Shown here: one piece after another, positions 44,744 through 64,000 of the stretch
How positions within the stretch are numbered: the first letter of the stretch is position 1
How the letters are laid out: each line of letters begins with the position of its first letter
Source of the DNA: Cloacibacterium normanense
GTDB lineage: Bacteria; Bacteroidota; Bacteroidia; Flavobacteriales; Weeksellaceae
Direction of reading: 5' to 3'
Length of the DNA: 64,000 nt
NCBI RefSeq assembly: GCF_002943105.1
Contig: NZ_PTPZ01000006.1
Span: forward strand, 1-64,000
The notes under the pieces: model-generated
Databases searched by the model: none
What the model saw: the letters and a program-made list of their open reading frames with translations, nothing else
What the model was told of the DNA's origin: nothing
Made by a program: the position numbers and the translations under genes

Positions 44744-45049
44744 ATGTTATTTATTTCTTCTTCAAAAGCGCAAAAAAAAATAGCTGAAAATGTACGTGAA
44801 AGAAGATTACAAATGGATCTTACACAAGAAGGTTTAGCGGAGAGATCAGGTGTGCCTTTGTCCACATTGAGGAAATTTGAACAAAAAGGAAATATTTCTT
44901 TAGAATCATTTTTAAAATTACTTTCTGTAATAGGCGGTTTAGAGGAAGTAATAAACGCTTTAAAGCCTAACATACCAAATTTTAAATCCATTGATGATGT
45001 TCTAAAAACAGAGGCAGAAATCATTAAAAAAAGGGGCAGAAAAAAATGA
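44744..45049 (+). CDS. hipB: HipB-like antitoxin (XRE-family HTH)
   Basis: A 101-residue protein with an XRE helix-turn-helix at residues 10-65 (RRLQMDLTQEGLAERSGVPL, then LRKFEQKG). The C-terminus ends in a basic KKRGRKK. HipB neutralises HipA and represses the operon. The stop overlaps the hipA ATG (ATGA at 45046), the usual coupling. The first residues MLFISSSK are atypical, so translation may begin slightly downstream, but this is the only upstream ATG that fits. Confidence 0.85.
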   Translation: MLFISSSKAQKKIAENVRERRLQMDLTQEGLAERSGVPLSTLRKFEQKGNISLESFLKLLSVIGGLEEVINALKPNIPNFKSIDDVLKTEAEIIKKRGRKK

Positions 45050-46275
45050 AAACAGCTATCAAAGAAATAAAAGTAGGATTAGATTTTGGCTCTGGAATTC
45101 AACCTGTTGGGAGATTGGCAATACGAAATGGTATTATCTATTTTGAGTACGACAATGATTTTTTGCAGACAGAATTAGAAATATCACCCATCAAACTTCC
45201 TTTGCAGCGAGGTGTGATAGGGCTTCCAAGAGATCCATTTGAAGGTTTAGCAGGCGTTTTCAATGATAGTTTGCCCGATGGTTGGGGGAGATTGCTTTTT
45301 GATCGTATGCTTCGTTACGAAGGTATTTTACCATCAGAAGTTACTCTCCTTGATCGTTTGGCTCACGTAGGTTTACATGGATTGGGCGCTTTGGTTTATG
45401 AGCCAGATGAAAGCCCAAATTTTGATGATGAAATAATTGATTTAGATGTATTAGCTTCACAAACAAAAGAAGTTTTAGAAGGAGGATCTGATGAAGTTAT
45501 TGCAGAACTTTTAGCATTGAATGGTTCTTCTGCGGGAGCAATGCCAAAAGCTTTAATTGGCGTAGATAAAGAAAGAAAAAACATCTCGTATGGAGCTCAT
45601 CATTTAAGCGATGGTTTTGAACCTTGGATGGTGAAATTCCCGAACTCACAAGATGGCAATGATTCTGGTGCGATTGAATATGTATATGCTTTAATGGCTA
45701 CAGAAGCAGGAATTGCAATGCCAAATGTTCATTTATTTTCTTCACAAAAAGGAAATGGTTACTTTGCAGTCAAACGTTTTGACAGAGAAGGAAATGAACG
45801 CCTTCATATGCATACCGTGAGCGGATTGATTCACAGTAATTTTAGATTTCCATCTCTTGATTATGAAGATTTATTGTCTTTGACAAGTTATTTAACCAAA
45901 GATATTCGAGAGGTGGAAAAAATGTTTCGATTAGCTGTTTTCAATGTCATGGCACATAATCAGGATGACCATGCAAAGAATTTTTCGTTTTTGATGAATG
46001 AATTGGGCGAATGGAAATTATCTCCAGCTTATGACCTTACCTTTTCAAACGGACCTGGTGGCGAACAAAGTACTATGGTATTGGGTGAGGGTAGAAATAT
46101 AACCCTACAACATCTTTTAAAATTAGGTACAGAAGCTCAACTTTCAAAAAATTTCATAGAGAGTGTTATTGATCAAACACGTTCTGCAATTGGTAAATGG
46201 ACGGATTTAGCTAAATATTATGGTGTTAGCGATTCAAATATCAATTTTATTAATCGTAGTATTTCAAAATGGTGA
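45046..46275 (+). CDS. hipA: HipA-like serine/threonine kinase toxin
   Basis: A 409-residue protein with a typical HipA layout: N-terminal couple_hipA region (FEGLAGVFNDSLPDGWGRLL), a Ser-rich activation/P-loop segment (NGSSAGAMPKAL), the catalytic motif HNQDDHAKN (D307, D308, H309), and metal-binding D330 in AYDLTFS. HipA kinases phosphorylate and inhibit a glutamyl-tRNA synthetase in E. coli and cause growth arrest; targets in other families differ. All key residues are present, so the toxin is probably active unless held by HipB. Confidence 0.88.
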   Translation: MKTAIKEIKVGLDFGSGIQPVGRLAIRNGIIYFEYDNDFLQTELEISPIKLPLQRGVIGLPRDPFEGLAGVFNDSLPDGWGRLLFDRMLRYEGILPSEVTLLDRLAHVGLHGLGALVYEPDESPNFDDEIIDLDVLASQTKEVLEGGSDEVIAELLALNGSSAGAMPKALIGVDKERKNISYGAHHLSDGFEPWMVKFPNSQDGNDSGAIEYVYALMATEAGIAMPNVHLFSSQKGNGYFAVKRFDREGNERLHMHTVSGLIHSNFRFPSLDYEDLLSLTSYLTKDIREVEKMFRLAVFNVMAHNQDDHAKNFSFLMNELGEWKLSPAYDLTFSNGPGGEQSTMVLGEGRNITLQHLLKLGTEAQLSKNFIESVIDQTRSAIGKWTDLAKYYGVSDSNINFINRSISKW

Positions 46276-48003: not shown

Positions 48004-48615
48004 ATGGAAAGTATTGACAGTAAAATACTTGAAAAAATAAAAAAAGCGAAGAGGGGTTCGCTTTTTTATACTGAAGATTTCTTATCATTTGGTAATTATA
48101 AAGCAGTATCTAAAGCATTAGAACGTTTGGTGAATACCAATGAAATTTCAAGAGTTTCCAGAGGAATTTTTGCGGTTTTGGAAAAAGATCCAATTATTGG
48201 TGAAGTGTATCCTAGTACAGAAGAAATAGCAGAATCTATTCGAAAAAGAGATAAAGCAAGGTTAATTCCTACAGGAGTTTTAGCACTTAATGCTTTAGGT
48301 CTTTCCACTCAGATTCCCATGAATTTAGTTTATTTAACAGATGGTTCAGCAAGAACAATTAAATTAGGAAAACGAAGTGTTGTATTTAAAAAGGCGAGTC
48401 CAAAAAATTTAGCTGTTATTGGGAGCATCAGCGGTCTTGCTATACAGGCACTTAAGGAAATAGGAAAGGATAACATAACAGAACAAGAGTTAGAAATCAT
48501 TATTAAACATCTTAAAAAAGAAGAGCCTTATCGTTTAGAGCACGACATAAAATTGGCTCCAGAATGGATACGAATTATCATGAGAAAAGCATTGCCTAAG
48601 AAAAATGAAAAATAA
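48004..48615 (+). CDS. abiEi: AbiEi-type antitoxin/repressor (DUF6088-like)
   Basis: A 203-residue protein. It has an N-terminal winged helix (KRGSLFYTEDFLSFGNYKAV, then ERLVNTNEISRVSRGIFAV) and a C-terminal domain (RLIPTGVLALNALGLSTQIP, then TDGSARTIKLGKRSVVF) typical of the AbiEi/DUF6088 family. It acts as antitoxin and as transcriptional repressor of the pair. It overlaps the toxin gene by 11 bp. Two palindromes upstream fit its autoregulation. Confidence 0.85.
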   Translation: MESIDSKILEKIKKAKRGSLFYTEDFLSFGNYKAVSKALERLVNTNEISRVSRGIFAVLEKDPIIGEVYPSTEEIAESIRKRDKARLIPTGVLALNALGLSTQIPMNLVYLTDGSARTIKLGKRSVVFKKASPKNLAVIGSISGLAIQALKEIGKDNITEQELEIIIKHLKKEEPYRLEHDIKLAPEWIRIIMRKALPKKNEK

Positions 48616-49621
48616 ATTTCTAGAACTTCCAAAAGAAACCCGAATTAACATCTTCAACAGAGTTGCTGATCAATTGGGTATTACTCCTTTTGCAGCCGAA
48701 AAAGATTGGTGGGTTACAAGAACCTTATCGATCATTTTTGAAATGGAAAATGTTGCCCCTCACTTAGTATTTAAAGGAGGTACATCATTAAGTAAGGCTT
48801 GGAATTTAATAGAGAGATTTTCAGAAGATGTTGATTTGGCTATTGATAGGGCATATTTAGGATTTGATGAAATCCCGAAACGAAAAACCAATTTGCGTAA
48901 AAAATCTGGAAAATTCATTTCAGAAGAGTTCTTTCCCGATTTAAAAGAACGATTTTTATCAAAGGGGATAGGAGAAAATGTGAATTTTACATTAGAACCA
49001 GCTCAATCATCCGATCAGGATCCAAGGATTATCAATATATTTTATCCCAATATTATTGAGCTTACAGGATATATGAATCCTAGAGTTCAGATCGAAATTG
49101 GTTGTAGATCTTTGATTGAACCGTATTCTGATAGATTAATTTCCTCATTGGTAGATACTCAATTTAGAGAAGTTGATTTTATTGAAAAACCATTTTTTGT
49201 TCCTTCAGTAAATCCAGAACGAACATTTTTAGAAAAAATATTTCTTTTGCATGAAGAATTTCAAAAATCTCAGGAGAAAATTAGAGTAGATCGTTTGAGC
49301 AGACATTTATATGACTTGTATATGCTTTACAATTCTGAATTTAAAGATAAAGCCCTAAATGATGAAGCCTTGTACCGTGAAATAGTACAACATAGGTTAG
49401 AATTTAATAGAGTTGCAGATGTTGATTATTCATTACACAGTTCTCAAACCATAAATCCAATTCCACCAGACACAATAATTAAAAAGTGGGAACAAGATTA
49501 TGAAACCATGAGATTGGAAATGCTTTACAGCGAAAATCGACCTACTTTTTCTGAAATTATCGAGACATTACAAAAATTAAAATCAGAAATCAATAATTTA
49601 AATTGGACAATTGAAGTTTAA
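48605..49621 (+). CDS. abiEii: AbiEii-type nucleotidyltransferase toxin
   Basis: A 338-residue protein of the AbiEii/AbiGii family. Nucleotidyltransferase motifs are GGTSLSKA (58-65) and SEDVDLAI with D75 and D77. A helical C-terminal region includes RLSRHLYDLYML. AbiEii toxins block phage multiplication and bacterial growth when not countered by AbiEi. The gene is intact, and the last base of its stop is the first base of the right flanking repeat. Confidence 0.85.
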   Translation: MKNKFLELPKETRINIFNRVADQLGITPFAAEKDWWVTRTLSIIFEMENVAPHLVFKGGTSLSKAWNLIERFSEDVDLAIDRAYLGFDEIPKRKTNLRKKSGKFISEEFFPDLKERFLSKGIGENVNFTLEPAQSSDQDPRIINIFYPNIIELTGYMNPRVQIEIGCRSLIEPYSDRLISSLVDTQFREVDFIEKPFFVPSVNPERTFLEKIFLLHEEFQKSQEKIRVDRLSRHLYDLYMLYNSEFKDKALNDEALYREIVQHRLEFNRVADVDYSLHSSQTINPIPPDTIIKKWEQDYETMRLEMLYSENRPTFSEIIETLQKLKSEINNLNWTIEV

Positions 49622-49793: not shown

Positions 49794-52700
49794 ATGAAAA
49801 AAAGTTTATTTTTTCTCTTATTAAGTACATTACTTTATTCTCAAAACATAAATTTTACTTGGATTCAAGGTACAAATCAAACTGAACAAACTGCAGAAAT
49901 TGGTTTATATGGACTAGACTCTGATGAAAACTGGCCAGGTATTCAAAGAGATATGTCTTATGTAGTAGACAAAGAGGGATTATTTTGGATGTTTGGCGGA
50001 TACAGTGAGGGTAGCTATAGCAGTATATTATGGAGCTACAATAAGCAAAACAATAATTTTACGTTTAAAAAAGGCAGACCTTATAATGATTCTAACGGTT
50101 TTGATAAAGGAATCAACGTAGAGAGTTATCGCAATATGCCTTCTGGAGTTTCACTATCTTCATTTTGGACTTCAAATAATAATTTATATAAATTTGGAGG
50201 GATTACTAGCTCTTTAACAGCGAGCAATGATTTCTGGAAATTTAATATTGCAACCAATAATTGGATTAAAATATCTGAACCTACTAATGATGGAGCTGGG
50301 CATTTTGGAACGAAAGGCGTAGAAGACATTGCAAATATACCTCCTGCTTTAATTAATACAACAACTTGGACCGATGAACAAGGGAACCTATATCTTTTTG
50401 GAGGAAGAACAGGCCTTAGTAATAGATCTAATACTGTAGAATATGATACATTATGGAAATATAATATTTCTACGAAGATGTGGAGTTGGATTGGAGGAAG
50501 TGATCAACCTAATGCTACTGGTAATTATAATACATTAGGTCAGGAGCATTCATTAAACTCACCAGGTGCAAGGTATGGTTCATGTTCATTTAAAGATTCT
50601 CAAGGTAACATATATATTTATGGAGGTTTTTTTAATGGTAAATCTCAATATTATTTATTAAATGATCTTTGGAAGCTTAATATGAATACTGGACAATGGA
50701 CTTGGTTAAAAGGTAGTCTAACTAGTAAAGAAAGTATTGTAAGTGACATTGGAGTAGAAGATCCAAATAATTTACCCAATACATTAGACTGGAGTTTGGA
50801 CAATCCAAAACCTAATCATTGGGTAGATAATAGCGGTGATTTTTGGATATTTGTAAATCAATACATGTGGAGATACAGAATATCTACAAATTCATGGGCT
50901 GTAATGAAACAAAAAAAAATTATTACCGATGATGATAAAAAACCAATTTATGGAACAATAAATGTAGAAGATCCAAAAAACTTTCCAGGAACTATTAATG
51001 GATCAGCTTGTTGGATTGGAAATGACGGGAACTTGTATCAGTTTAAAGGTAGTAAAAACATTGATGCTATATGGAAGTACAATATCCAAACCAACAATTG
51101 GGTTTGGATTAAAGGTGTAGATAGTAACATTAATTCTGTTAATAAAAATACGTATCAAAAGCTTGCAGGACTATTAGAAAGTGAAAATACACCAGGCGGA
51201 ACCTTAGATTTTGGCGCTAAATGGACTGATGAAGATGGAAATCTTTGGCTTTATGGGGTTCTAGGTTCATTCCATAAAGGATTTTCCCTATATGTGTATC
51301 GATCAGATGATTTATGGAAGTTTGATATTTCTCAAAAAAAATGGCAATGGATTAAAGGAAACTATTTTTCTTTCTACAATTTTTCTAATTATAATTCTTT
51401 AGATTATGGGGTGTTAAATGTTGAAGACAAGAGAAATTCTCCAGGATCTCGTAATGAAGCGTTTTCATGGATAGATAAAAATGGAAATCTATGGCTTTTT
51501 GGCGGCAATTATGGCAGCTTTGATAATCAATTGCATCAGGACTTATGGATGTATAACAGAAAAACTAATAATTGGGTATGGAAAGGGGGCAAACAAAAAA
51601 ATGATGAACCATTTGCTAATTATGGAACGTTAGGCGTTTCTTCTATTACTAATATTCCTGGAGCTAGAAGAGATGGCAAGAGTTGGGTAGACCAAGAAGG
51701 AAATTTTTATCTCTATGGCGGCTATGGCTTTGATGAGAAGTCTTCTCAAAGAGGTTATCTAAATGATGTATGGAAATATGATATAACACTTAATCAATGG
51801 GTTTGGTTAAGTGGAGATAAAATAATCAACAGCACCAACAGTAAAGATTATCCTATTGCCAAGGAAGAAAGTGGCATAGGATGGCAAGATGAAAATAAAA
51901 ATTTTTGGTATTATTTTTCTGGTATTATGTGGAAATATCAAACCAATAATAATACATGGACGAAAGTAAGGAGTTCAATACCTTTTACGGCTCTTAATTA
52001 TGGAAATATTGGAGTAGAAAACGACACTAATTTTCCGGGAAACAGAGCCAATGCATTTACATGGACTGGAAAAAATGGTGACTTATGGTTTTTGGGAGGA
52101 AAGGACAGCTATTCTAAACTAGATTTATGGAGATATAATATTAATACAAATAATTGGACTTGGATGTATGGTCCTAAATCTTCATTACCAAAAAATTATG
52201 GTCAAATAAATGTTTCTTCGCCCACAAATCTTCCTCCTCATAGGTATAATTCTGCAACTTGGAATGATCAGTTAGGAAACTTATATTTCTTCGGAGGTGA
52301 TTTATATAATGATGTTTGGCGAATAAATTTTAATAATTACGCACCTAATTTATTTACTGTTACTGCACAAGATGAAACTTGTGATACCAAAAATAATGGA
52401 GCAATATTAATTACTTCTAAAGAAAATTATACTTACAGCTATTCATTAAATGGAAGTAATTGGGTGTCTTTTAATTCATCTGTCACGCTCAATAACCTGA
52501 ATGGCGGCACATATAATCTATGCATTAAATTATCAAATGATACGCAGTATTGTTATGTAGTAAATATCGGAAAACCTGAAAATTTAAAGGGAAAAATTGA
52601 ACTATCTGGAAGGCTTGCTAAAGTTCAGATACAGTCAGGTACAGCACCTTTTACCATTACTTATGGAAAAAAAAATATTACGGTTTACAGTAAAGGAAGC

Positions 52701-53030
52701 TATGATTTAATTCTAGATAATTTTGCAGATAATATTGTATTAGAATCGTCCAAATCATGTGAAGGGAAAATTATTAAAGAATTAATTACTACCCAAAATG
52801 ATATCGTAATATTTCCAAATCCTACGAGTGATTTGATAAATATTGTTAACCATTTAAATGAAAAGGTACACCTAGCTCTATACTCACAAAATGGTCAACT
52901 GATTATGGAAGATGATATCAAAGAAAATCACTCCAAAACTATTTCTATCAAAAAACAACCTTCAGGGACATACCTTCTAGTGTTGGAATCCGAAAATAGA
53001 AAAATGATTAAAAAAATTATTAAGCAATGA
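49794..53030 (+). CDS. Kelch/galactose-oxidase-type repeat protein, T9SS-secreted
   Basis: A 1078-residue protein with a signal peptide (MKKSLFFLLLSTLLYSQN). It contains about twelve Kelch-like blades of the pattern GVEDxxNxPG...W.D..GNLWLFGG...DLWKYNxxTNxWxW. A short domain rich in beta strands follows near 870-990, then a type A T9SS sorting tail (VIFPNPTSDLINI to IIKQ). Likely an exported surface or extracellular propeller protein, possibly binding glycans; no catalytic copper ligands were identified. It overlaps the next gene by 4 bp. Confidence 0.8.
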   Translation: MKKSLFFLLLSTLLYSQNINFTWIQGTNQTEQTAEIGLYGLDSDENWPGIQRDMSYVVDKEGLFWMFGGYSEGSYSSILWSYNKQNNNFTFKKGRPYNDSNGFDKGINVESYRNMPSGVSLSSFWTSNNNLYKFGGITSSLTASNDFWKFNIATNNWIKISEPTNDGAGHFGTKGVEDIANIPPALINTTTWTDEQGNLYLFGGRTGLSNRSNTVEYDTLWKYNISTKMWSWIGGSDQPNATGNYNTLGQEHSLNSPGARYGSCSFKDSQGNIYIYGGFFNGKSQYYLLNDLWKLNMNTGQWTWLKGSLTSKESIVSDIGVEDPNNLPNTLDWSLDNPKPNHWVDNSGDFWIFVNQYMWRYRISTNSWAVMKQKKIITDDDKKPIYGTINVEDPKNFPGTINGSACWIGNDGNLYQFKGSKNIDAIWKYNIQTNNWVWIKGVDSNINSVNKNTYQKLAGLLESENTPGGTLDFGAKWTDEDGNLWLYGVLGSFHKGFSLYVYRSDDLWKFDISQKKWQWIKGNYFSFYNFSNYNSLDYGVLNVEDKRNSPGSRNEAFSWIDKNGNLWLFGGNYGSFDNQLHQDLWMYNRKTNNWVWKGGKQKNDEPFANYGTLGVSSITNIPGARRDGKSWVDQEGNFYLYGGYGFDEKSSQRGYLNDVWKYDITLNQWVWLSGDKIINSTNSKDYPIAKEESGIGWQDENKNFWYYFSGIMWKYQTNNNTWTKVRSSIPFTALNYGNIGVENDTNFPGNRANAFTWTGKNGDLWFLGGKDSYSKLDLWRYNINTNNWTWMYGPKSSLPKNYGQINVSSPTNLPPHRYNSATWNDQLGNLYFFGGDLYNDVWRINFNNYAPNLFTVTAQDETCDTKNNGAILITSKENYTYSYSLNGSNWVSFNSSVTLNNLNGGTYNLCIKLSNDTQYCYVVNIGKPENLKGKIELSGRLAKVQIQSGTAPFTITYGKKNITVYSKGSYDLILDNFADNIVLESSKSCEGKIIKELITTQNDIVIFPNPTSDLINIVNHLNEKVHLALYSQNGQLIMEDDIKENHSKTISIKKQPSGTYLLVLESENRKMIKKIIKQ

Positions 53031-53701
53031 AAAACAATACTTCTATAATTATTATTTTTTTTTGTCTTTTTTTCTTAATAGCTTGTAGCGATAATAGAGA
53101 AGAAAATACTCCCAAAAAATTAGTAACAGCTACCACTTTACTGCTACCATCTGATAAACAAATCTGTATGGAAATGCCTATTACATTCTCTTGGAAAAGC
53201 GTAACAAATGCAACCAGTTACAACTTAACCGTAAATAAAGTAGAGAACGGTAAAGAAACTACTGTTTTTACAGAATCTACGTCAAATACAAACTATTCAT
53301 TTAATAATCTTGAAAAAGGAATATTGTATAAATGGAAAGTGGAAACTATAGGCCCTCAAAATTCTATGATGAGCAGTACTTTTCAGTTTCAAACAGAATC
53401 TTTAGCCATAACAAATCATACCCCATTTGCTCCAGAACTTATAAGTCCTACACTTGGAAGTACTATAGTTGATAATTCTGTGAGTTGGAAGTGTGAAGAT
53501 TTAGACAATGATCCTCTTACTTATGATCTCTATTTAGGTACAGATATTAACAATTTAAGGTTAACAGAATCAAATCTTACATCAACTAATTATAAGTTTA
53601 AAGAATTAGTAGCCAACACAAAATATTATTGGAAAATTATAGCAAAAGATAATCACTCTAATGTGTCCGTTGGTCAAGTATGGAGTTTTATAACCTCTTA
53701 A
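53027..53701 (+). CDS. Lipoprotein with two fibronectin-III-like domains
   Basis: A 224-residue protein with a lipoprotein signal (IIIIFFCLFFLIAC). Two Fn3-like domains each have W at strand C and YxWKVET or YYWKIIA near the end (residues about 40-120 and 135-224). It probably displays at the cell surface or anchors the Kelch-type partner, with which its start codon overlaps (ATGA at 53027). Confidence 0.75.
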   Translation: MKNNTSIIIIFFCLFFLIACSDNREENTPKKLVTATTLLLPSDKQICMEMPITFSWKSVTNATSYNLTVNKVENGKETTVFTESTSNTNYSFNNLEKGILYKWKVETIGPQNSMMSSTFQFQTESLAITNHTPFAPELISPTLGSTIVDNSVSWKCEDLDNDPLTYDLYLGTDINNLRLTESNLTSTNYKFKELVANTKYYWKIIAKDNHSNVSVGQVWSFITS

Positions 53702-54619: not shown

Positions 54620-57600
54620 ATGAAAAAAATTGCATTAGTTTTTATTTGTTTGATGACTCAACTCTTGTATTCCCAAAGTGCGAATGTAAAAATTGAAAAT
54701 CAAGCGGATGGTCAAAAACTTTTAGTTGACGGAAAACCATTGATGATTAATGGTATGAATTGGGATTATTATCCTATAGGAACCAACTATAACTATTCGC
54801 TGTGGAATCAAAAAGATGATTTCATTAAAACAGCACTCGACAGTCAAATGTCACTTCTCAAAAACATGGGTGTAAATGCCATCAGAGTTTACACTGGCAT
54901 TCCAGCCAAATGGATTACCTACATTTATGAAAATTACGGAATCTACACCATGCTTAATCATTCTTTTGGCAGATATGGACTTACCGTAAATGGAACTTGG
55001 ATTCCGAATACAGATTACGCCAATCCCGCAACCAGAGCGTTACTCCTCAAAGAAGTAAAACAACTTAGTCAACAATACAAAAACACACCAGGATTGCTTC
55101 TTTATCTTTTAGGAAATGAGAATAACTATGGTTTGTTTTGGGATGGTGCAGAAACAGAAAATATTCCTGTAGCCGAAAGAAAATCTACGCATAGAGCAGA
55201 AGCCATGTATAAACTCTTTAACGAAGCTGCTCTAGAAATGAAATCAGTAGACCAAAACCATCCTATAGCCATGTGTAATGGTGATTTATTATTTCTAGAC
55301 ATTATTGCTAAAGAATGTAAAGATATAGACATCTATGGAACCAATATGTACAGAGGCGTTTCTTTCGGAGATGCGTTTTTACGTGTTAAAAATGAATTCG
55401 GAAAACCATTACTATTTACAGAATTTGGAGCCGATGCTTTCAATGAACTTACGGGTAAAGAAGATCAAGATGCCCAAACTTATTATTTACTAGGAAACTG
55501 GCAAGAAATTTATGAAAATGCAGCAGGAATGGGAAAAGCTGGTAACAGTATTGGTGGTTTTACTTTTCAGTTCAGTGATGGATGGTGGAAATACAAACAA
55601 AATGAAAATTTAGAAGTTCATGATGCTAATGCTTCTTGGAGTAACGGTGGTTACATAAAAGATTATGCAAAAGGCGAGAATAACATGAACGAAGAATGGT
55701 TTGGCATCAGTGCAAAAGGAACTCCAGATGCTAATGGATTGTATCAAGAATTTCCACGTTCTGCATATTACGCTTTGAAACAAGCTCATCAATTTAATCC
55801 TTATGACAGCTCATCATTGGTGAATTCTAACACCGTTAAAAACCATTTTAACCAAATTAATATTGCAGACGCTCAACTTAGAGCTAGAGGCGACCAAGCT
55901 GCCTTAAAAGCAGAAAGCAGTGACAAACTAAAAATAAGCAATTTAAGAGCTGATTTTAACACGTATAATACTGGTGGTAGCCTTATCACTACTCCAAAAG
56001 ATAAAACTGATGGATATAATTCTTACCCAAATCAACAAGGATTTGATCATACCCAATCGTATTACATTGGTGTAGAAGCGAATCCTACTTCTAATATGAG
56101 AGCCAATGTGAATGTAAATATTTTAGGAAATGTAGCCGAAAATCCTATTGACCAAATCTTTTATGAAAACAGAGGTAGAAGCGTAGAAGTTCTAAATGCA
56201 GATGGTACCACTACCCAAATGAAAGATCTGAACCGCGTACAAATATATAGCGCGAGTTATCATTGGAATCATAAATGGTTTGACTTAGACGGATTCTACA
56301 GAACAGGTCATTATCATTGGGGTTACGAAGGTGATATTTTTGGATTGTATCCAGAAGCCAATTACGGTCCTAATATTGATATTTATAATGGTGAAGCACC
56401 TTTCGGATTTGAATTTGCAGGTAAAAAAGCCATCAATGGATTAAAAATCGCTTTCGGTCCAGAATTATGGTGGGGCGCAAACCCAGCTGTTTTGGTTAAA
56501 TATTCCAAAAAAGTAGGAAAATTTGATCTAACGGGAGTTTTCCATGAAGATTTAGACCAAAGAGGCACTACTCAGAGTTCATTTGCCATTCCGCAACCAC
56601 AAACGAGAAGAGCTACACTTGCTGTTCAAAGAAAATTTGGAAAATTGGGCATTGATTTAGGCGGAATTTGGGCTGGTCAACCTTTAAACGGTAGAACCTT
56701 CCAAGTTTACAGAGATGGAAACGTTTATCAAGACCAAATTAACGACCAAGACAATTGGGGAGGAAAAGTAAAATTTACTTATGCAGGCGGAAGATTTAAT
56801 TGGTATGCACAAGGTGCAGCAATGGGATTGGTTGCTAATGGTGGAGCAGATAATACTCAAACGTTCACCGGTTGGAGATTAAAAGACAGTGGAAGTGGTA
56901 ACCAATATAATTTCTTGACTGGTTTTACTTTCAATATCGGAAATTTACAGATTGCGCCTAATTTCTTATGGCAAAAACCAATCGAAGGACCCGTTCCTTT
57001 TGGCGCTCCTGCTCCAGGAAGACCTAGAAATATTTTAGAAGATCCATTTGTAGTAAGAGCCAACAGAGAACAAACTGCAGGAGAAATTTTATTCACGTAT
57101 GATCCTACACCCGCTACTTGGATGTACAGTTGGGACAGTGACAAAACCGAAGATGCTAAGTTTGCCATCAGTGCAGGATTTGTTTACAGACATTTACCAA
57201 CTACACAAGACGCTGCCATCGGAATTTTACCAGACGGCAGAACCACTTTTGCTTTCCCTGGTGCTGCTCCAGCAAAAGATCTTTGGGAAGTGAACACGAG
57301 AATCGTTTCTAAACTCACTAATGATTTTGGAATTATTGCCAATATTTATGGAGGAACCGCTCAAGCCAATGGTAGCGATACTAGAACTGTAGAAAGAGTA
57401 GGACTAGACCTAAGAACGATTTATAAAAAAGTGAAATTTATTTCTGCTGTTAAATTCAATGATTGGGGACCTTACGATTATCATAGAGATTACAACTTAA
57501 CTTTCCCAATGCAATTAATCGGTGATTTATCTTTTGAAATCGGCAAACCAGAATGGTGGATTTTGCCGGGAACTAGAATTGGTATTCGTGGAACTTATAG

Positions 57601-57748
57601 AACTTTAGACCAATATTCTCCTAGATATGCACCTACTTATACCATAGATGCCGCTGGAAATTGGGTAGCAGATCCTACTGCAATTGGTTTCCCAAATGGA
57701 AACGAGTGGGAAATCAGAACGTATATTCAAATCAACATAGGCAAATAA
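54620..57748 (+). CDS. Clan GH-A glycosidase fused to predicted outer-membrane beta-barrel
   Basis: A 1042-residue protein with a signal peptide (LVFICLMTQLLYSQS). Residues 20-400 form a TIM-barrel glycosidase of GH2/GH5-like type: GMNWDYYP, the acid/base E167 in LGNENN, and the nucleophile E268 in TEFGAD. Residues about 440-1042 consist of repeated amphipathic beta strands with aromatic ends (WFDLDGFYRTGHYHW, KFAISAGFVYRH, FGIIANIYGG, WEIRTYIQINIG), as in outer-membrane barrels. There is no T9SS tail. It would therefore carry the enzyme at the cell surface. It starts the glucan operon; the substrate is probably a beta-glucan, given GH16 downstream. Confidence 0.8.
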   Translation: MKKIALVFICLMTQLLYSQSANVKIENQADGQKLLVDGKPLMINGMNWDYYPIGTNYNYSLWNQKDDFIKTALDSQMSLLKNMGVNAIRVYTGIPAKWITYIYENYGIYTMLNHSFGRYGLTVNGTWIPNTDYANPATRALLLKEVKQLSQQYKNTPGLLLYLLGNENNYGLFWDGAETENIPVAERKSTHRAEAMYKLFNEAALEMKSVDQNHPIAMCNGDLLFLDIIAKECKDIDIYGTNMYRGVSFGDAFLRVKNEFGKPLLFTEFGADAFNELTGKEDQDAQTYYLLGNWQEIYENAAGMGKAGNSIGGFTFQFSDGWWKYKQNENLEVHDANASWSNGGYIKDYAKGENNMNEEWFGISAKGTPDANGLYQEFPRSAYYALKQAHQFNPYDSSSLVNSNTVKNHFNQINIADAQLRARGDQAALKAESSDKLKISNLRADFNTYNTGGSLITTPKDKTDGYNSYPNQQGFDHTQSYYIGVEANPTSNMRANVNVNILGNVAENPIDQIFYENRGRSVEVLNADGTTTQMKDLNRVQIYSASYHWNHKWFDLDGFYRTGHYHWGYEGDIFGLYPEANYGPNIDIYNGEAPFGFEFAGKKAINGLKIAFGPELWWGANPAVLVKYSKKVGKFDLTGVFHEDLDQRGTTQSSFAIPQPQTRRATLAVQRKFGKLGIDLGGIWAGQPLNGRTFQVYRDGNVYQDQINDQDNWGGKVKFTYAGGRFNWYAQGAAMGLVANGGADNTQTFTGWRLKDSGSGNQYNFLTGFTFNIGNLQIAPNFLWQKPIEGPVPFGAPAPGRPRNILEDPFVVRANREQTAGEILFTYDPTPATWMYSWDSDKTEDAKFAISAGFVYRHLPTTQDAAIGILPDGRTTFAFPGAAPAKDLWEVNTRIVSKLTNDFGIIANIYGGTAQANGSDTRTVERVGLDLRTIYKKVKFISAVKFNDWGPYDYHRDYNLTFPMQLIGDLSFEIGKPEWWILPGTRIGIRGTYRTLDQYSPRYAPTYTIDAAGNWVADPTAIGFPNGNEWEIRTYIQINIGK

Positions 57749-57758
57749 TTTTATCAAA

Positions 57759-59642
57759 ATGAAAAATATATTTAAACATAAATTCATTAAGCCATTTTTA
57801 GGAATTTCTTTGCTGCTTGCATTGGGCTGTCAAAGAGATCTAAATGACCTAGAACCTGCTAGTTATTCTAAAAATCCAGATGTTTTCTTAGACACTTTTA
57901 GTGCAGGACTTAACTATGCCGCATTTGGCGGTTCAGATGTTAAAGCTTTCGATGTAGATACTCAAGTGAAGTATTCTGGAACTACCTCTATGAAAATTGC
58001 TGTTCCTGATTATGGAAGTCCAGAAGGAGCTTATGCTGGTGGAACTTTTTTCACTTCTGTAGGAAGAGATTTATCCGATTACAATGCCTTAACATTTTGG
58101 GTTAAAGCCACTCAATCTGCTAATATAGACGTTTTAGGTTTTGGTAATGATTTAGGCGAAAATAAATATCAAGTTTCGCTTTCTGGAGTTGCCGTGAACA
58201 CGAATTGGAAGAAAGTTATTATTCCTATTCCAGATGCTGCGAAACTAAAAATGGAAAGAGGAATGTTCTTCTATTCCGAAGGACCAGAAAACAATAAAGG
58301 TTACACTTTTTGGATTGACGAAGTAAAGTTTGAAAAAATAGGAACTATTTCTTATCAATCTGCAACAGTTTTAAATGGAGAAAACAAAACGGTGACTTCA
58401 TTTGTAGGCGTAAAAAATGTATTAGATGGTTTAACTGCTCAGTTTAGTATGCCTAATGGAACTACACAAGCAGTTAACCTTACGCCTTATTATTTCAATT
58501 TTGCGAGTTCTAATCCTAGTGTAGCCACTGTAGATGGAGTAGGTAATGTGAATACCATAGCAGCAGGAAACTCTATCATTACCGCTTCTTTGGGAAATAA
58601 TGTTGCTAAAGGAAGTCTTACCATTAATTCTAGTGGTGCCTATACGCATGCTCCAACTCCAACCCAAGATGCTTCTAAAGTTATTTCTTTGTTTAGTGAC
58701 AAATATTCTAATGTTCCCGTAGATTATTATAATGGTTATTGGGCACCATATCAAACAACTCTCTCTTCAGATTTTGTGGTAGAAGGAGACCATGTACTAA
58801 ATTATACTAATTTCAACTTTGTAGGCATGCAAATGAGTTCACCTCCAGTGAATGCAACCTTTATGTCACATTTGCATTTAGATATTTATTTACCAAATGC
58901 AATGCCAGCTGGAGCTAATTTTAAAATACAAGTTTTAGATTTCGGTGCCAATGGAGTTTATGGAGGAAATGATGACAAAACAGGCGAAACAACTATTACA
59001 GCTCCTACTTTACAAGGTCAAAAATGGGTGAGCCTAAATATTCCAATAACTGCGTTTGCTGGACTTACTTCTAAAGCACATATTGGTCAAGTAATTTTTG
59101 TAGGAACGAATATTTCTGGATTCTATGCAGATAATATTTATTTTTACAATGACGGAAGTATCATTACCCCAACTCCTACAGTAGCAGCACCAACACCTAC
59201 TCATGCAGCTAATACTGTATTGTCAATTTTTAGTGATGCTTATACCAATGTTACAGGCACAAATTTTAATCCTAATTGGGGACAAGCTACCCAAGTGTCA
59301 CAAGTATCAGTCTCTGGTAATAATACTCTAAAATACGCCGGACTCAACTATCAAGGAACACAGTTTGGTAGTAATCTTAATGTATCTTCTTATGGGTATT
59401 TACACATTGATTATTATTCTTCTAATTCTACTGCCCTTAATTTTTATTTAATCAGTTCAGGACCTGTAGAAAAAGCGTATTCTCTGTCTGTTCCTACAAG
59501 TTTGGGAACTAATAATAATGGTTGGAAAAGCATTGATATTCCATTGTCAGCCTTTTCACCTGTAGCGCTTAATAATCTTATTCAGTTTAAAGTAGATGGA
59601 AACGGAGATGTTTTCTTTGATAATATTTATTTCCACAATTAA
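57759..59642 (+). CDS. Multidomain glycan-binding lipoprotein (SusE-like role)
   Basis: A 627-residue protein with a lipoprotein signal (LGISLLLALGC, cysteine at about 24). A first jelly-roll-like domain (residues 40-195, ending WIDEVKFEK) is followed by an Ig-like BIG2 domain (about 210-300, SSNPSVATVDG). Two copies of a module follow, starting APTPT...V.S.FSD.Y.NV and ending ADNIYFYN and FDNIYFHN. These modules are shared with the T9SS protein downstream. Likely binds glucan at the cell surface. Starts 10 bp after the glycosidase. Confidence 0.75.
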   Translation: MKNIFKHKFIKPFLGISLLLALGCQRDLNDLEPASYSKNPDVFLDTFSAGLNYAAFGGSDVKAFDVDTQVKYSGTTSMKIAVPDYGSPEGAYAGGTFFTSVGRDLSDYNALTFWVKATQSANIDVLGFGNDLGENKYQVSLSGVAVNTNWKKVIIPIPDAAKLKMERGMFFYSEGPENNKGYTFWIDEVKFEKIGTISYQSATVLNGENKTVTSFVGVKNVLDGLTAQFSMPNGTTQAVNLTPYYFNFASSNPSVATVDGVGNVNTIAAGNSIITASLGNNVAKGSLTINSSGAYTHAPTPTQDASKVISLFSDKYSNVPVDYYNGYWAPYQTTLSSDFVVEGDHVLNYTNFNFVGMQMSSPPVNATFMSHLHLDIYLPNAMPAGANFKIQVLDFGANGVYGGNDDKTGETTITAPTLQGQKWVSLNIPITAFAGLTSKAHIGQVIFVGTNISGFYADNIYFYNDGSIITPTPTVAAPTPTHAANTVLSIFSDAYTNVTGTNFNPNWGQATQVSQVSVSGNNTLKYAGLNYQGTQFGSNLNVSSYGYLHIDYYSSNSTALNFYLISSGPVEKAYSLSVPTSLGTNNNGWKSIDIPLSAFSPVALNNLIQFKVDGNGDVFFDNIYFHN

Positions 59643-59671: not shown

Positions 59672-60517
59672 ATGAAATTTTTCGAAATCAAAAATATTCA
59701 AAAAGTAATTCTTACCAGTAGTTTAGGACTTTTTTTACTACCACTTATAAGTTGTGAAGAAGAAGCTGTACAAAATTTACCTACCCGAAATTGGGAACTT
59801 GTATGGAGCGACGAATTCGAAGGTAATGCAGGAACTTTACCAGACGCAAGTAAATGGACTTATGACATCGGAACAGGTACGAATGGTTGGGGAAACCAAG
59901 AATTAGAATATTACACCAAAAGAACTGATAATGTAAAACTTGATGGCACAGGAAATCTAGTCATTACCGCCAAAAAAGAAAATTATTCTGGTTCTGCTTT
60001 TACTTCTGCAAGAATTAAAACTCAAGGTTTATTTTCTCAGACCTATGGTAAAATAGAAGCCAGAATTAAAACACCTTATGGACCTGGAATTTGGCCAGCA
60101 TTTTGGATGCTCGGAGATGACATAGGCACTGTTGGTTGGCCACAATCTGGAGAAATAGACATCATGGAACTTAAAGGTAATATTCCAAATGTGGTCTACG
60201 GAACTTTACATGGTCCTGGCTATTCTGGTGGTGCTGCCAAAACCAAATCTTATGGTTTGCAAAATTCTAGATTTGACCAAGATTTTCATGTATTCGGTAT
60301 CGAATGGAAAGAAAACCAAATTGACTTTTTTGTAGATGGCTTTCTTTACCAGAGAGTTACTCCAAAAGATGTTACTGGAGAATGGGTCTACAATAATCCT
60401 TTTTTCTTAATTCTTAATGTAGCAGTTGGAGGGAATTTCGTGGGTTTTCCAACCGATGGAACTTCCTTTCCACAGAATATGTACATCGATTATGTACGTG
60501 TATACAAGGCTAAGTAA
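59672..60517 (+). CDS. GH16 beta-glucanase (laminarinase-type) lipoprotein
   Basis: A 281-residue protein with a lipoprotein signal (LGLFLLPLISC). The GH16 domain fills the rest: LVWSDEF, GNQELEYYT, IWPAFWML and the catalytic GEIDIMEL, with E161 nucleophile, D163 and E166 acid/base. YIDYVRVYK closes it, as in laminarinases that cut beta-1,3-glucans. All catalytic residues are intact. The gene lies 29 bp after the binding lipoprotein. Confidence 0.92.
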   Translation: MKFFEIKNIQKVILTSSLGLFLLPLISCEEEAVQNLPTRNWELVWSDEFEGNAGTLPDASKWTYDIGTGTNGWGNQELEYYTKRTDNVKLDGTGNLVITAKKENYSGSAFTSARIKTQGLFSQTYGKIEARIKTPYGPGIWPAFWMLGDDIGTVGWPQSGEIDIMELKGNIPNVVYGTLHGPGYSGGAAKTKSYGLQNSRFDQDFHVFGIEWKENQIDFFVDGFLYQRVTPKDVTGEWVYNNPFFLILNVAVGGNFVGFPTDGTSFPQNMYIDYVRVYKAK

Positions 60518-60549: not shown

Positions 60550-62097
60550 ATGAAAAAAATATCTATTTTTTTGATGTTTTTGCTATCAGTGTTGGTTTTT
60601 TCGCAGCCTAGCACTAATGCTCCAACCCCTACTCATGCATCTACAGATGTAATATCTATTTTTAGTGATACATATACAAATGTTGCCACTAATTATAATC
60701 CATATTGGGGTCAATCGGGCACAGTTAATACCAATTTTGAAGCAGTTTCTGGTTCAGGAAATAAAATTTTAGTTTATTCTAATTTTAATTATCAAGGGAC
60801 CGAAGTTTCAACCCAAAATGCTTCTGCAATGGAATATTTGCATATAGATGTTTGGACCAATAATGCTACCGTTCTTAAAGTTTCTCCTATTAATAATGGA
60901 ACTGGGACAAATGAAAAATTAGTAGAAGTAACACTTGTCAATGGGGGATGGAGCAGTGTAGATATTCCTAAAAGTTCTTTTACAGGAATGACATGGGATT
61001 CAGTATTTCAATTCAAATTTGATGCACAATCAGGAACTACACCATGTACTGTATATTTAGACAATATTTATTTCTGGAAAACAGGCACTACGGCTTCTGC
61101 GGATGCTACTTTGAGTGATCTAAAAATTGATGGTGCTACCATTACAGGATTTAATGGAAGTGCAACCACTTATAACTATGGTGTTCCGGGAGGAAATCCT
61201 ATTCCGCAGATTACAGCAGCTACAACTACTAATTCATCAGCTACAATAACTAGTATAACTCAAGCAAGTGCTATACCAGGAAATGCTACTGTATTGGTAA
61301 CTGCAGCAGATGGAACAACAACTAAAACATATACGATTTCTTATTTTTATAATTCGCCAGCTACTGCAGCTCCTACACCAAGTCATTCTAATGTGGTGTC
61401 TTTATATAGCGGAGCCTACTCCAATATAAATGTTGACACATGGAATACAGGATGGAGCCAAGCATCTTATTCTGAAGTCAATATTGCTGGTAATGCCACA
61501 AAAAAATATACAAGTCTAGGATTTAATGGAGTAGAAACTACAAGTAATCCAATAAATGCAGGAGGAATGTCTTATTTACATATGGATGTTTGGACTCCAA
61601 ATATTACCACCCTTGGCTTGAAACTTGTAAGTTTCTTAGGAGATGGATATGGAGGTGCTAATGGTGATTCTGAAGGTAATGTAAATGTAAATTTAACTGC
61701 TGGTCAGTGGAACCAATTGCATATTCCATTGTCAGACTTTACTGCTGCAGGATTAAGTAGCCTTAATGATTTACAACAATTTATTTTCACTAGTACTCCT
61801 TTTGGTAGCGGAATTTTGTTTATAGATAATGTATATTTTACTGCAGAAACATTAGGAGTTAAAGATATTAAAGCTAAAGAAAACTTTAGAGTCTATCCTA
61901 ATCCTGTTCGTTCTGGTGAAATGATTAACGCTAATATAAATGTAAAAAGTTTAGAGATATATAATTTAGTAGGGCAGAAGGTTAAAACCGTTACAGGTAA
62001 AACAATTAGTACTGATGGCTTATCTAAAGGAATTTATCTTATAAAAGCAACGAAAGATAACGGCGAAGTTTTAACTTCTAAACTTATCGTTAACTAA
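60550..62097 (+). CDS. T9SS-secreted glycan-binding protein with duplicated modules
   Basis: A 515-residue protein with a signal peptide (IFLMFLLSVLVFSQ). Module 1 (about 24-175, NAPTPTH...ISIFSDTYTNV...YLDNIYFW) and module 2 (about 275-430, AAPTPSH...SLYSGAYSNI...FIDNVYF) are separated by a cadherin-like domain (ATLSDLKIDGATITGF). A type A sorting tail (FRVYPNPVRSGE to LIVN) ends it. Likely a surface or released glucan-binding protein without an enzyme domain. It is the last gene of the operon. Confidence 0.78.
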   Translation: MKKISIFLMFLLSVLVFSQPSTNAPTPTHASTDVISIFSDTYTNVATNYNPYWGQSGTVNTNFEAVSGSGNKILVYSNFNYQGTEVSTQNASAMEYLHIDVWTNNATVLKVSPINNGTGTNEKLVEVTLVNGGWSSVDIPKSSFTGMTWDSVFQFKFDAQSGTTPCTVYLDNIYFWKTGTTASADATLSDLKIDGATITGFNGSATTYNYGVPGGNPIPQITAATTTNSSATITSITQASAIPGNATVLVTAADGTTTKTYTISYFYNSPATAAPTPSHSNVVSLYSGAYSNINVDTWNTGWSQASYSEVNIAGNATKKYTSLGFNGVETTSNPINAGGMSYLHMDVWTPNITTLGLKLVSFLGDGYGGANGDSEGNVNVNLTAGQWNQLHIPLSDFTAAGLSSLNDLQQFIFTSTPFGSGILFIDNVYFTAETLGVKDIKAKENFRVYPNPVRSGEMINANINVKSLEIYNLVGQKVKTVTGKTISTDGLSKGIYLIKATKDNGEVLTSKLIVN

Positions 62098-62163: not shown

Positions 62164-62171
62164 TATATTTG
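62164..62171 (+). promoter_or_regulatory. -7 promoter element of the regulator gene
   Basis: TATATTTG matches TAnnTTTG and lies 9 bp upstream of the ATG at 62181, implying a very short leader. No TTTG at the -33 position is seen; the terminator hairpin occupies that place. Confidence 0.5.
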
Positions 62172-62180
62172 AAATACTTC

Positions 62181-64000
62181 ATGTACAAGAGATACTTCAC
62201 ATATTTTTTATTTCTTATTTCTATTTTTTCTGGGGGACAAGTCATCGCAGAAAAAGGGATTCCTTTTATTAAAAATTATCTTCCTGAAGATTATGGAAAC
62301 CACGGTAAAATCTGGGAAATAAAGTCCGCACAGAATGGTCTCGTTTACATGGCTTCTGAAAACGGTTTATTAGAATTTGACGGTAAAAAATGGAACCGTT
62401 TCCGAGATTACAAAGGATACACTCGTTCGCTTTTTTTAGCCAATGATTCTACTATTTATACCGGTGCAGACATGGATTTTGGGATTTGGAGAAAAAATAA
62501 ATTCCAAAAATTTGATTATCAATCGCTTTATCCTTACAACAGAAAAATCGGTGGCGTAAATGAAGAGTTCTGGGGAACTTACGCTTATCAAAATCAAATT
62601 GTTTTTGTTTCTCATCAGAACTTATATCAATATTCCAACAAGAAAATCACCAAAATTCCTGCTCCTGTTCGTTTTTTTGAAAGTTTTCAAGTAAAAGGCA
62701 GAATCTTTTTAGCCGATGAGAAAAAAGGTCTTTATGAATATGTGAATAACCAATTGGAGCTCTTGTTTTCTTATCCAAATGATAAAAATTTAGAAATTTC
62801 AGGGATTTATATTGAGCAAAACGGTACCATTATTATCGTGACGAGAAGTTCTGGAATTTACACCTTCCAAAACGGAAAATTACAAACAGTTACTCTAGAA
62901 ATCAGTTCAGAAATTATCAAAAATAAGGTTTTTAGTTTTACCTATTTTGACGAAAAATATTGGGCTTTTGGTACGATTCTCAATGGTTTATATATTACTG
63001 ACCATCAAGGAAAAATCATTCAGCATCTCAATAAAGACAAGGGAATGCCCAATAATACCATCCTCAGTTTGCATTATCAAAAAAATGGAAAAATATGGAT
63101 GGGATTAGATTATGGGTTATCTTATTCTGATATCAAAAACAACGTTACTTACTTTTATAACACCAATACCAATTTCGGAACAGGTTACACCGCTGCTTTA
63201 GATGGAGATTCTTTTTATTTAGGCACTAATCAAGGACTTTATAGTGCTTCTTGGAACGCCATGAATAACAGCAAAGACGCCAATCCTTTCCGCATTATTA
63301 ATGGAGCAGAAGGACAAGTTTGGACTTTGCAAAAAGTAGGCAATATCATTCTCTTCGGTCATGACAGCGGTTTATTTGAAATAGAAAATGGTCAACTGAA
63401 TAAAATCTACAATGAACCAGGCGTTATGAGCATTTTGTCTTATAGCGATGACATTTTACTTACCGGAAATTACAACGGAATTTCTATTTTCAAAAAAGAA
63501 GGCAACTCATGGAAATTCGTCAAAAAAATGAAGGTAATTCTTGGCGCCATTAATCAAATTGTGAAGGAAAACAATCGTACACTCTGGGTAAATATCCCCA
63601 ATTACGGGTTTATACGATTTGTGATGGATGCTCAGTTTAATCCTATCACCAAAACCATTATTAATCCTAAAAAATTTAAAGGATATTTCCCTTATCTTTT
63701 CAAAGATCATTTGGGAATTCATATTCTTACCAATAAATCAGAATATTTATATAGTAATTCTACCCAACAGTTTAAATTGATAAAAAAACAAGTTCATCTA
63801 AAAAACATTAATAATAGATTTACGGGATTTTATCTTCCTCTTGCACTTAATTCAGAATACGGTTTTTACTCCATTCATAATGGTTTTGCCCTTGAAAAAA
63901 CAATAAAACAAAAACAAAATTATCCTTTTTATTCAGAGTTGCTTTTCAGAAAAAGTCAAGCTTTTAACAATCAAGAAACTAAAGATTTATATCGTGGTTC
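62181..64000 (+). CDS. Sensor-regulator with two-component-type beta-propeller (3' end missing)
   Basis: Open from ATG 62181 to the window end (606 codons). It has a signal-type N-terminus (YFTYFLFLISIFSGGQVIA). It then carries repeated propeller blades: NGLVYMASENGLLEFDGKKW, NGKIWMGLDYGLSYSD, and DDILLTGNYNGISIF. This is the periplasmic sensor layout of Bacteroidota hybrid two-component or triple-tyrosine/LuxR-type regulators of polysaccharide use. Its place directly after the glucan operon suggests it senses glucan fragments and controls that operon. The membrane, kinase or DNA-binding parts lie beyond the window. Confidence 0.75.
   Translation, partial: MYKRYFTYFLFLISIFSGGQVIAEKGIPFIKNYLPEDYGNHGKIWEIKSAQNGLVYMASENGLLEFDGKKWNRFRDYKGYTRSLFLANDSTIYTGADMDFGIWRKNKFQKFDYQSLYPYNRKIGGVNEEFWGTYAYQNQIVFVSHQNLYQYSNKKITKIPAPVRFFESFQVKGRIFLADEKKGLYEYVNNQLELLFSYPNDKNLEISGIYIEQNGTIIIVTRSSGIYTFQNGKLQTVTLEISSEIIKNKVFSFTYFDEKYWAFGTILNGLYITDHQGKIIQHLNKDKGMPNNTILSLHYQKNGKIWMGLDYGLSYSDIKNNVTYFYNTNTNFGTGYTAALDGDSFYLGTNQGLYSASWNAMNNSKDANPFRIINGAEGQVWTLQKVGNIILFGHDSGLFEIENGQLNKIYNEPGVMSILSYSDDILLTGNYNGISIFKKEGNSWKFVKKMKVILGAINQIVKENNRTLWVNIPNYGFIRFVMDAQFNPITKTIINPKKFKGYFPYLFKDHLGIHILTNKSEYLYSNSTQQFKLIKKQVHLKNINNRFTGFYLPLALNSEYGFYSIHNGFALEKTIKQKQNYPFYSELLFRKSQAFNNQETKDLYRG

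Follow-up and report, generated by a model that had tools for sequence, protein, structure and literature searches.

A 64,000-nucleotide stretch of Cloacibacterium normanense DNA (positions 1 to 64,000 of contig NZ_PTPZ01000006.1, assembly GCF_002943105.1; hereafter, the window) encodes a protein of 1042 amino acids in which a clan GH-A glycosidase and an outer-membrane β-barrel are joined in one chain. This fusion architecture is found in many Bacteroidota, where it heads a conserved gene cluster that looks, from its gene content, like an operon for β-1,3-glucan degradation. We consider it rather probable that the barrel is an outer-membrane channel for β-1,3-glucan fragments, with a retaining GH-A glycosidase at its periplasmic mouth, and that the fusion does the work of SusC and SusD, the TonB-dependent glycan importers. 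The protein and its parts are as follows.

54620-57748, forward strand: open reading frame of the glycosidase-barrel fusion, 1042 amino acids.
54620..54676, forward strand: Sec signal peptide, residues 1-19, with the cleavage site placed by eye and no lipobox.
54677..55819, forward strand: clan GH-A catalytic domain, residues ~20-400, with E167 as probable acid/base and E268 as probable nucleophile (roles assigned from alignment), supported by Pfam, a Protein Data Bank (PDB) sequence search, VIA-align and residue invariance.
55790..55927, forward strand: helical linker, residues 391-436, with helices at 403-411 and 415-433 in both AlphaFold2 (AF2) models.
55928..57745, forward strand: outer-membrane β-barrel, residues 437-1042, with 22 strands by our count, identified from AF2, amphipathicity, loop/turn asymmetry and fold searches.

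The catalytic domain is recognized by the Pfam model Glyco_hydro_2_C (PF02836), which covers residues 32 to 281 (E = 1.8e-7; score 31.1 bits, cut-off 21) and is matched by 23 of 25 family members at E ≤ 0.01. Unlike typical enzymes of glycoside hydrolase family 2 (GH2), which have accessory domains, the fusion has a TIM domain that begins soon after the signal peptide; the Pfam scan reported PF02836 alone at E values up to 1 and found neither the N-terminal sandwich nor the Ig-like domains of GH2. E167 lies in the motif LLGNEN and E268 in LLFTEFG, and each is paired in the alignment with the corresponding motif of GH158(Pro) (PDB accession number 9oro). All 76 aligned sequences (the window protein and those of 75 of the 80 loci described below) have N166-E167 and E268 unchanged, so that the GH-A domain and the two catalytic glutamates named in the initial annotation are borne out. 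The features of retaining glycosidases of clan GH-A, namely, a TIM barrel, an Asn-Glu acid/base and a Glu nucleophile, are thus all present at the level of sequence and fold. With the full-length model as the query, the nearest Foldseek matches are GH157 and GH158 endo-β-1,3-glucanases (E = 1.5e-12 and 2.4e-12). VIA-align, whose run on the whole model covered residues 15-414 only, superposes the domain on GH157 LaGH157 (Z = 27.1, rmsd = 3.2 over 310 residues) and on GH158(Pro) (Z = 26.1), with GH2 and GH5 enzymes close behind; the PDB sequence search gave weak profile matches (6pal, E = 3.6e-7; 9oro, E = 1.1e-4). The domain shares the clan fold and the aligned glutamates with BuGH158, GH158(Pro) and LaGH157 but differs in that the identity in structural alignments is 12-23% and the solved structures contain no barrel. 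By this likeness, its substrate would be β-1,3-glucan.

The initial annotation had also proposed that the roughly 600 C-terminal residues form a transmembrane β-barrel, and structure modelling agrees. AF2 gave a mean predicted local distance difference test score (pLDDT) of 76.5 and a predicted template modelling score (pTM) of 0.63 for the full-length protein, and 72.2 and 0.70 for residues 391-1042 alone; the long strands between 437 and 1040 agree in the two models. The grouping into 22 strands is our reading of these models, with short hairpins inside loops excluded, and the exact number is held loosely. Loops and turns differ in length: the 11 loops on the side opposite the N terminus have a mean of 26.8 residues, compared with 5.0 for the 10 turns on the N-terminal side. 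The difference in hydrophobicity between inward- and outward-facing strand positions has a mean of 3.77, against 2.34 ± 0.25 when residues are shuffled within strands; none of 2000 shuffles reached the observed value (maximum 3.15), which rules out a chance hydrophobic pattern. By sequence, the barrel resembles little: residues 421-1042 have no Pfam match, five unrelated Pfam families each hit only one or two of the 25 family barrels (best E = 0.032), and no solved structure was recognized in the PDB (best E = 1.5). By fold, all 50 of the Foldseek matches listed for the barrel model (the best 50 of 342 at E ≤ 0.001) are outer-membrane barrels or complexes containing one, among them BtuB, MOMP, OprC, FepA, LptD and OmpF. 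The top VIA-align rows, from a run that covered mainly model residues 50-507, are the alginate exporter AlgE (Z = 16.8, rmsd = 4.5, 276 residues), and further rows include MOMP, Occ porins, Wzi, Fiu, FimD, chitoporin, BT1762-1763 (Z = 13.5) and LamB. Tandem soluble β-sandwich domains, the alternative for this region, are excluded by both AF2 models and by the listed fold matches, all of which are membrane barrels.

Counted on the predicted models, the strands number as many as the 22 of TonB-dependent receptors and SusC. The TonB plug (PF07715) was found neither in the fusion nor in the 25 family barrels; with that library it is detected in the SusC proteins of loci L097, L219 and L240. The count of ~22 and the Pfam results also set the barrel apart from type Va autotransporters (12 strands; no autotransporter match) and from Omp85 and PlpD (a POTRA domain and a 16-strand barrel; no such match).

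The fusion recurs well beyond this genome. When the barrel half was used to scan genomes, one for each species, at least 558 encoding stretches were retrieved, and the best 80 by barrel identity were taken as the contig-scan set. All 78 of these with a complete frame hold both halves, the other two being cut by contig ends, and a chance or misassembled fusion is thereby excluded; the search for homologues thus returned the architecture that the initial annotation had described. Among 395 genomes of the class, 17 have a full-length fusion, one (G063) has the GH-A half alone, and 9 have weak matches only. A barrel match was obtained in 35 of 395 genomes of the phylum; 33 of the 36 matches lie in frames of 1028-1084 amino acids (3 of the 33 with one stop), the remaining 3 are fragments, and no intact stand-alone barrel was found among the 36. 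The GH-A domain occurs in 56 of 249 genomes of the family to which G315 belongs, and in 49 of these it is part of a frame of 1033-1096 amino acids. As for the other seven, the barrel is missing from G648 and G915; frames are gapped or interrupted in G829 and G787; and G774, G788 and G869 have shorter frames, which lie at contig ends in G774 and in one copy of G788, while the matches of G869 start at contig ends. In G829 (locus L221, 3166-5678), the fusion occupies two frames and the middle of the barrel is missing, through either a broken gene or an assembly fault. Besides the 80 contig-scan loci, we examined 10 of the 18 strong matches of the class set and 40 stretches for 40 of the 56 family-set genomes.

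Three relatives without a barrel are informative: L097 (G063; 433 amino acids), L219 (G648; 472 amino acids) and L222 (G915, 8382-10457; 692 amino acids), the last of which has a C-terminal GH16 domain in the place of the barrel. Each of their operons carries a plug-bearing SusC and a SusD (for G915, seen in the next stretch, L240), no barrel match was found anywhere in the three genomes, and no relative of the carbohydrate-binding module (CBM) gene that follows the fusion was found in the three stretches. Among the 97 fused loci for which 6 kb or more of upstream sequence is available, 87 show no SusD, whereas all three barrel-less loci have one (3/3 versus 10/97; Fisher p = 0.0018, kinship ignored); within the sampled-genome searches alone, the counts are 3/3 versus 9/41 (p = 0.017, kinship again ignored). 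These counts come from BLAST searches that used two queries each for SusC and SusD; when eight loci of each kind from the genome of C. normanense itself were added as queries, the SusD counts were unchanged, and one locus (L102) had a TonB-dependent receptor without SusD. Two further loci were left out of the count of three but are labelled barrel-less in the tree: L220 (G774), rejected as a barrel-less case because its frame stops at the contig end, and L221 (G829), whose barrel has a large internal gap. In each of the 122 fused loci whose sequence extends to a following gene, that gene is the CBM gene, and no relative of it turned up in the three barrel-less stretches, so the barrel and the CBM lipoprotein behave as a unit that may be missing where SusC and SusD are present.

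In a GH-A tree (65 rows, unrooted; 15 rows that failed the trimming motif and every second remaining barrel-only row were excluded), the barrel-less relatives stand at separate places on long end branches (1.13, 0.49 and 0.53 versus a median of 0.14), and L222 adjoins a fused row that has SusC and SusD (98*). The tree is unrooted, and loss of the barrel rather than gain is the presumed direction of change.

In outer-membrane proteins, the strand number is usually even, the long loops face outward and the short turns face the periplasm. The even strand count, the short turns on the N-terminal side and the long loops opposite lead us to expect the enzyme in the periplasm rather than at the surface. 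The N terminus (MKKIALVFICLMTQLLYSQ) reads as a plain Sec-type signal in which the sole Cys, at position 10, lies away from any cleavage site. The lipobox pattern matches 3 of the 98 anchor proteins, two of which were judged false by eye, the third being the barrel-less protein of L097. The type IX secretion system (T9SS) sorting domain PF18962, the sole tail type sought, is absent from the fusion and was found in two neighbours by the Pfam scan. The barrel-less proteins of L219 and L222 begin with plain signal peptides; neither visual inspection nor a Pfam scan revealed a T9SS tail in them. That of L097 has a lipoprotein signal (CAKKSS) with no acidic residues after the Cys; the SusD, GH16 and other lipoproteins of the barrel-less loci have acidic residues soon after it. 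An acidic stretch at this position marks surface lipoproteins in Bacteroidota, and the barrel-less relatives thus appear to carry signals of the periplasmic type, which suggests a periplasmic enzyme.

The main competing arrangement is surface display, in which the GH-A domain would cross to the outside as the passengers of classical autotransporters do, helix 415-433 would occupy the barrel lumen, and the enzyme would act on external polymer. The order of passenger, helix and C-terminal barrel does resemble that of type Va autotransporters, both AF2 models contain the two linker helices, and the GH16 and CBM partners look surface exposed from their lipobox matches. However, ~22 strands and the lack of a Pfam autotransporter match fit this poorly, it would be unusual for the passenger to be a folded TIM barrel, and the linker has the lowest mean conservation of the averaged regions (0.59, versus 0.74-0.80 for turns, strands, the GH domain and loops). 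PlpD of Pseudomonas aeruginosa offers a precedent: like the fusion, it has an N-terminal enzyme and a C-terminal outer-membrane barrel in one chain, and it was once thought to display its enzyme, which, according to the excerpt consulted of that report, was found in the periplasm (PMC11116518). PlpD differs in having a patatin-like domain instead of a glycosidase, a POTRA domain and a 16-strand Omp85 barrel. Given the strand pattern, the signals of the barrel-less relatives and this precedent, we favour an enzyme at the inner mouth and regard display as improbable, though still to be reckoned with. The interpretation in the initial annotation is therefore partly supported: its pore for the released sugar is plausible, and its barrel as an anchor for display at the cell surface has become doubtful.

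The genes that follow the fusion in the window are consistent with a role in glucan use.

57759..59642, forward strand: CBM-like lipoprotein (CQRDLNDLE after the lipobox), a proposed surface glucan binder with weak CBM30/CBM11 and Big_2 matches.
59672..60517, forward strand: GH16 lipoprotein (SCEEEAVQ), laminarinase type by family and a proposed surface endo-glucanase (Glyco_hydro_16, E = 4.9e-26).
60550..62097, forward strand: accessory CBM-like repeat protein with a T9SS C-terminal tail (Por_Secre_tail, E = 1.2e-9), whose repeats resemble the CBM lipoprotein.
62169..63998 in the window, continuing to 64883 on the contig, forward strand: propeller/Y_Y_Y regulator, assigned by Pfam.

This operon, which consists of the fusion and these four genes, is shorter than those of relatives, whose typical order is the fusion, the CBM-like lipoprotein and GH16, then often GH149, GH17, GH30 and the transporter MFS_2. 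In the contig-scan set, a relative of the CBM gene is present in 80 of 80 loci, GH16 in 75 (the other five stretches end just past the CBM gene) and a relative of the propeller regulator in 37; the lipobox pattern matches 58 of 97 relatives of the CBM lipoprotein and 51 of 80 GH16 proteins. Among 98 anchored loci, many with limited flanks, downstream proteins of ~1157 amino acids form a cluster present in 68 and proteins of ~504 amino acids one present in 53; the former are GH149 β-1,3-oligoglucan phosphorylases (E = 0 to 6hq6) and the latter GH30. GH17 and MFS_2 lie around GH149 and GH30, and GH3 also occurs. In locus L054 (13677-15379), two GH16 relatives stand in tandem, and in L014 (14720-18151), the GH149-type gene is split over two frames. 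The absence of SusC and SusD from the window operon, as first annotated, holds for the frames listed and scanned from 44 kb onward. Elsewhere, the genome has 8 SusD-like matches, 7 of them above the cut-off, and on contig 12 three GH30 genes neighbour a SusD-like gene at distances of ~1 to 11 kb.

In the mechanism that we propose, the GH16 and CBM lipoproteins would bind and cut glucan at the surface, and the fragments would traverse the large, selective barrel, unobstructed by a TonB plug. At the inner mouth, the GH-A domain would shorten or trim the emerging fragments, and this trimming on exit could make uptake one-way without TonB; periplasmic and cytoplasmic partners (GH30, GH17, MFS_2 and, in many relatives, GH149) would complete the breakdown. 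The fullest form of this idea, which we put forward only tentatively and hold to be less probable than the channel as such, is a TonB-independent importer in which a plug-free 22-strand barrel carries a tethered periplasmic glycosidase whose catalysis drives one-way uptake, the CBM lipoprotein stands in the place of SusD, and the whole has been exchanged with SusC and SusD more than once in evolution. Lumen-facing and loop positions are conserved above lipid-facing ones (0.82 and 0.80 versus 0.72), as expected of a selective channel.

Several points weigh against this proposal. The AF2 confidence is moderate (mean pLDDT 72-77) and low in loops, the Foldseek matches to single barrels have low TM-scores (0.16-0.34 by query length), and the loop conservation figures stand without a control family. 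The genome of C. normanense itself gave no GH149 match in a search run without a positive control, and the GH-A tree is a quick one in which the placement of L097 is unsure. Furthermore, 10 of the 97 well-flanked fused loci, and 9 of the 41 from the sampled-genome searches, carry both SusC and SusD. The ten loci with both indicate that the two systems can coexist and that the barrel is not simply an alternative to SusC and SusD, and a strict replacement of one by the other was softened accordingly. Together with the SusD-like proteins elsewhere in the C. normanense genome, one of them near three GH30 genes, they lend some support to the barrel as an anchor only, which would hold the enzyme near SusC-type transporters or the CBM and GH16 lipoproteins while the sugar enters elsewhere. 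We judge this quite unlikely: a 600-residue barrel with the conservation pattern above exceeds the needs of an anchor, most fused loci have no SusD nearby, and absence of the barrel was seen solely where SusC and SusD are present. Export, in which the enzyme would remodel or transglycosylate glucan and the barrel would pass it outward, could draw on AlgE at the top of the VIA-align rows and on a weak match of 6 of 25 family members to the GH72 glucanosyltransferase model. It is very improbable in view of the degradative appearance of the operons (GH16, GH17, GH30, GH3, the GH149 phosphorylase, MFS_2 and the propeller regulator) and the fact that no glycosyltransferase was found among the operon proteins scanned with Pfam.

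Polysaccharide uptake in Bacteroidota is usually equated with SusC and SusD, and operons without the pair are called carbohydrate-active enzyme (CAZyme) clusters. The fusion shares with SusC and SusD an approximately equal strand number, a surface-type lipoprotein encoded beside it and a place in a polysaccharide operon; unlike them, it has no plug, no CarboxypepD domain and no partner of the SusD fold, and its glycosidase is fused at the N terminus. As a conserved protein heading many β-glucan operons, it is a concrete candidate for the route of the sugar across the outer membrane, and the three barrel-less lineages, with SusC and SusD seemingly in the place of the barrel, make the idea testable. 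If the proposal is true, counts of susC and susD genes underestimate glucan users, and a TonB-independent importer would give Bacteroidota a second means of bringing in glycans.

In the open-access literature searched, we met no glycosidase fused to an outer-membrane barrel. Enzyme-barrel fusions and glycan import barrels are both known; it is their combination, with a role in a glucan operon, that appears to be undescribed. The nearest functional parallel is FORMB_24740 of Formosa, a fusion of a major facilitator superfamily (MFS) transporter and GH17 in laminarin use, for which the excerpt consulted proposes a coupling of cutting and transport and states that such a transporter-CAZyme fusion was known to its authors from no other bacteria (PMC6246565); it joins a transporter of 12 helices to GH17, whereas the present protein joins an outer-membrane barrel to a GH-A domain. 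GH149 CAZyme clusters occur with and without susCD pairs, and those without share with the fusion operons the enzyme set GH149, GH17/GH16 and GH30/GH3; the portion consulted of that report mentions neither a glycosidase-barrel fusion nor the outer-membrane route of the sugar for them (PMC5827456). Laminarin loci with a GH2 have been described alongside GH16 and GH149 (PMC13188888) and alongside GH17 and CBM proteins (PMC11345257); these GH2 proteins may be the same protein as the fusion, and the excerpts consulted of the two reports note no barrel for them.

Upstream of the fusion, at 49794-53701, lie genes for a Kelch-repeat protein with a T9SS tail and a lipoprotein with an fn3 domain. They were considered as part of the module and rejected, with the kelch gene in 2 of 80 loci and the fn3 gene in 0 of 80. 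Two gene pairs farther upstream (44744-46275 and 48004-49621) resemble, by eye, toxin-antitoxin pairs of the HipB/HipA and AbiEi/AbiEii types.

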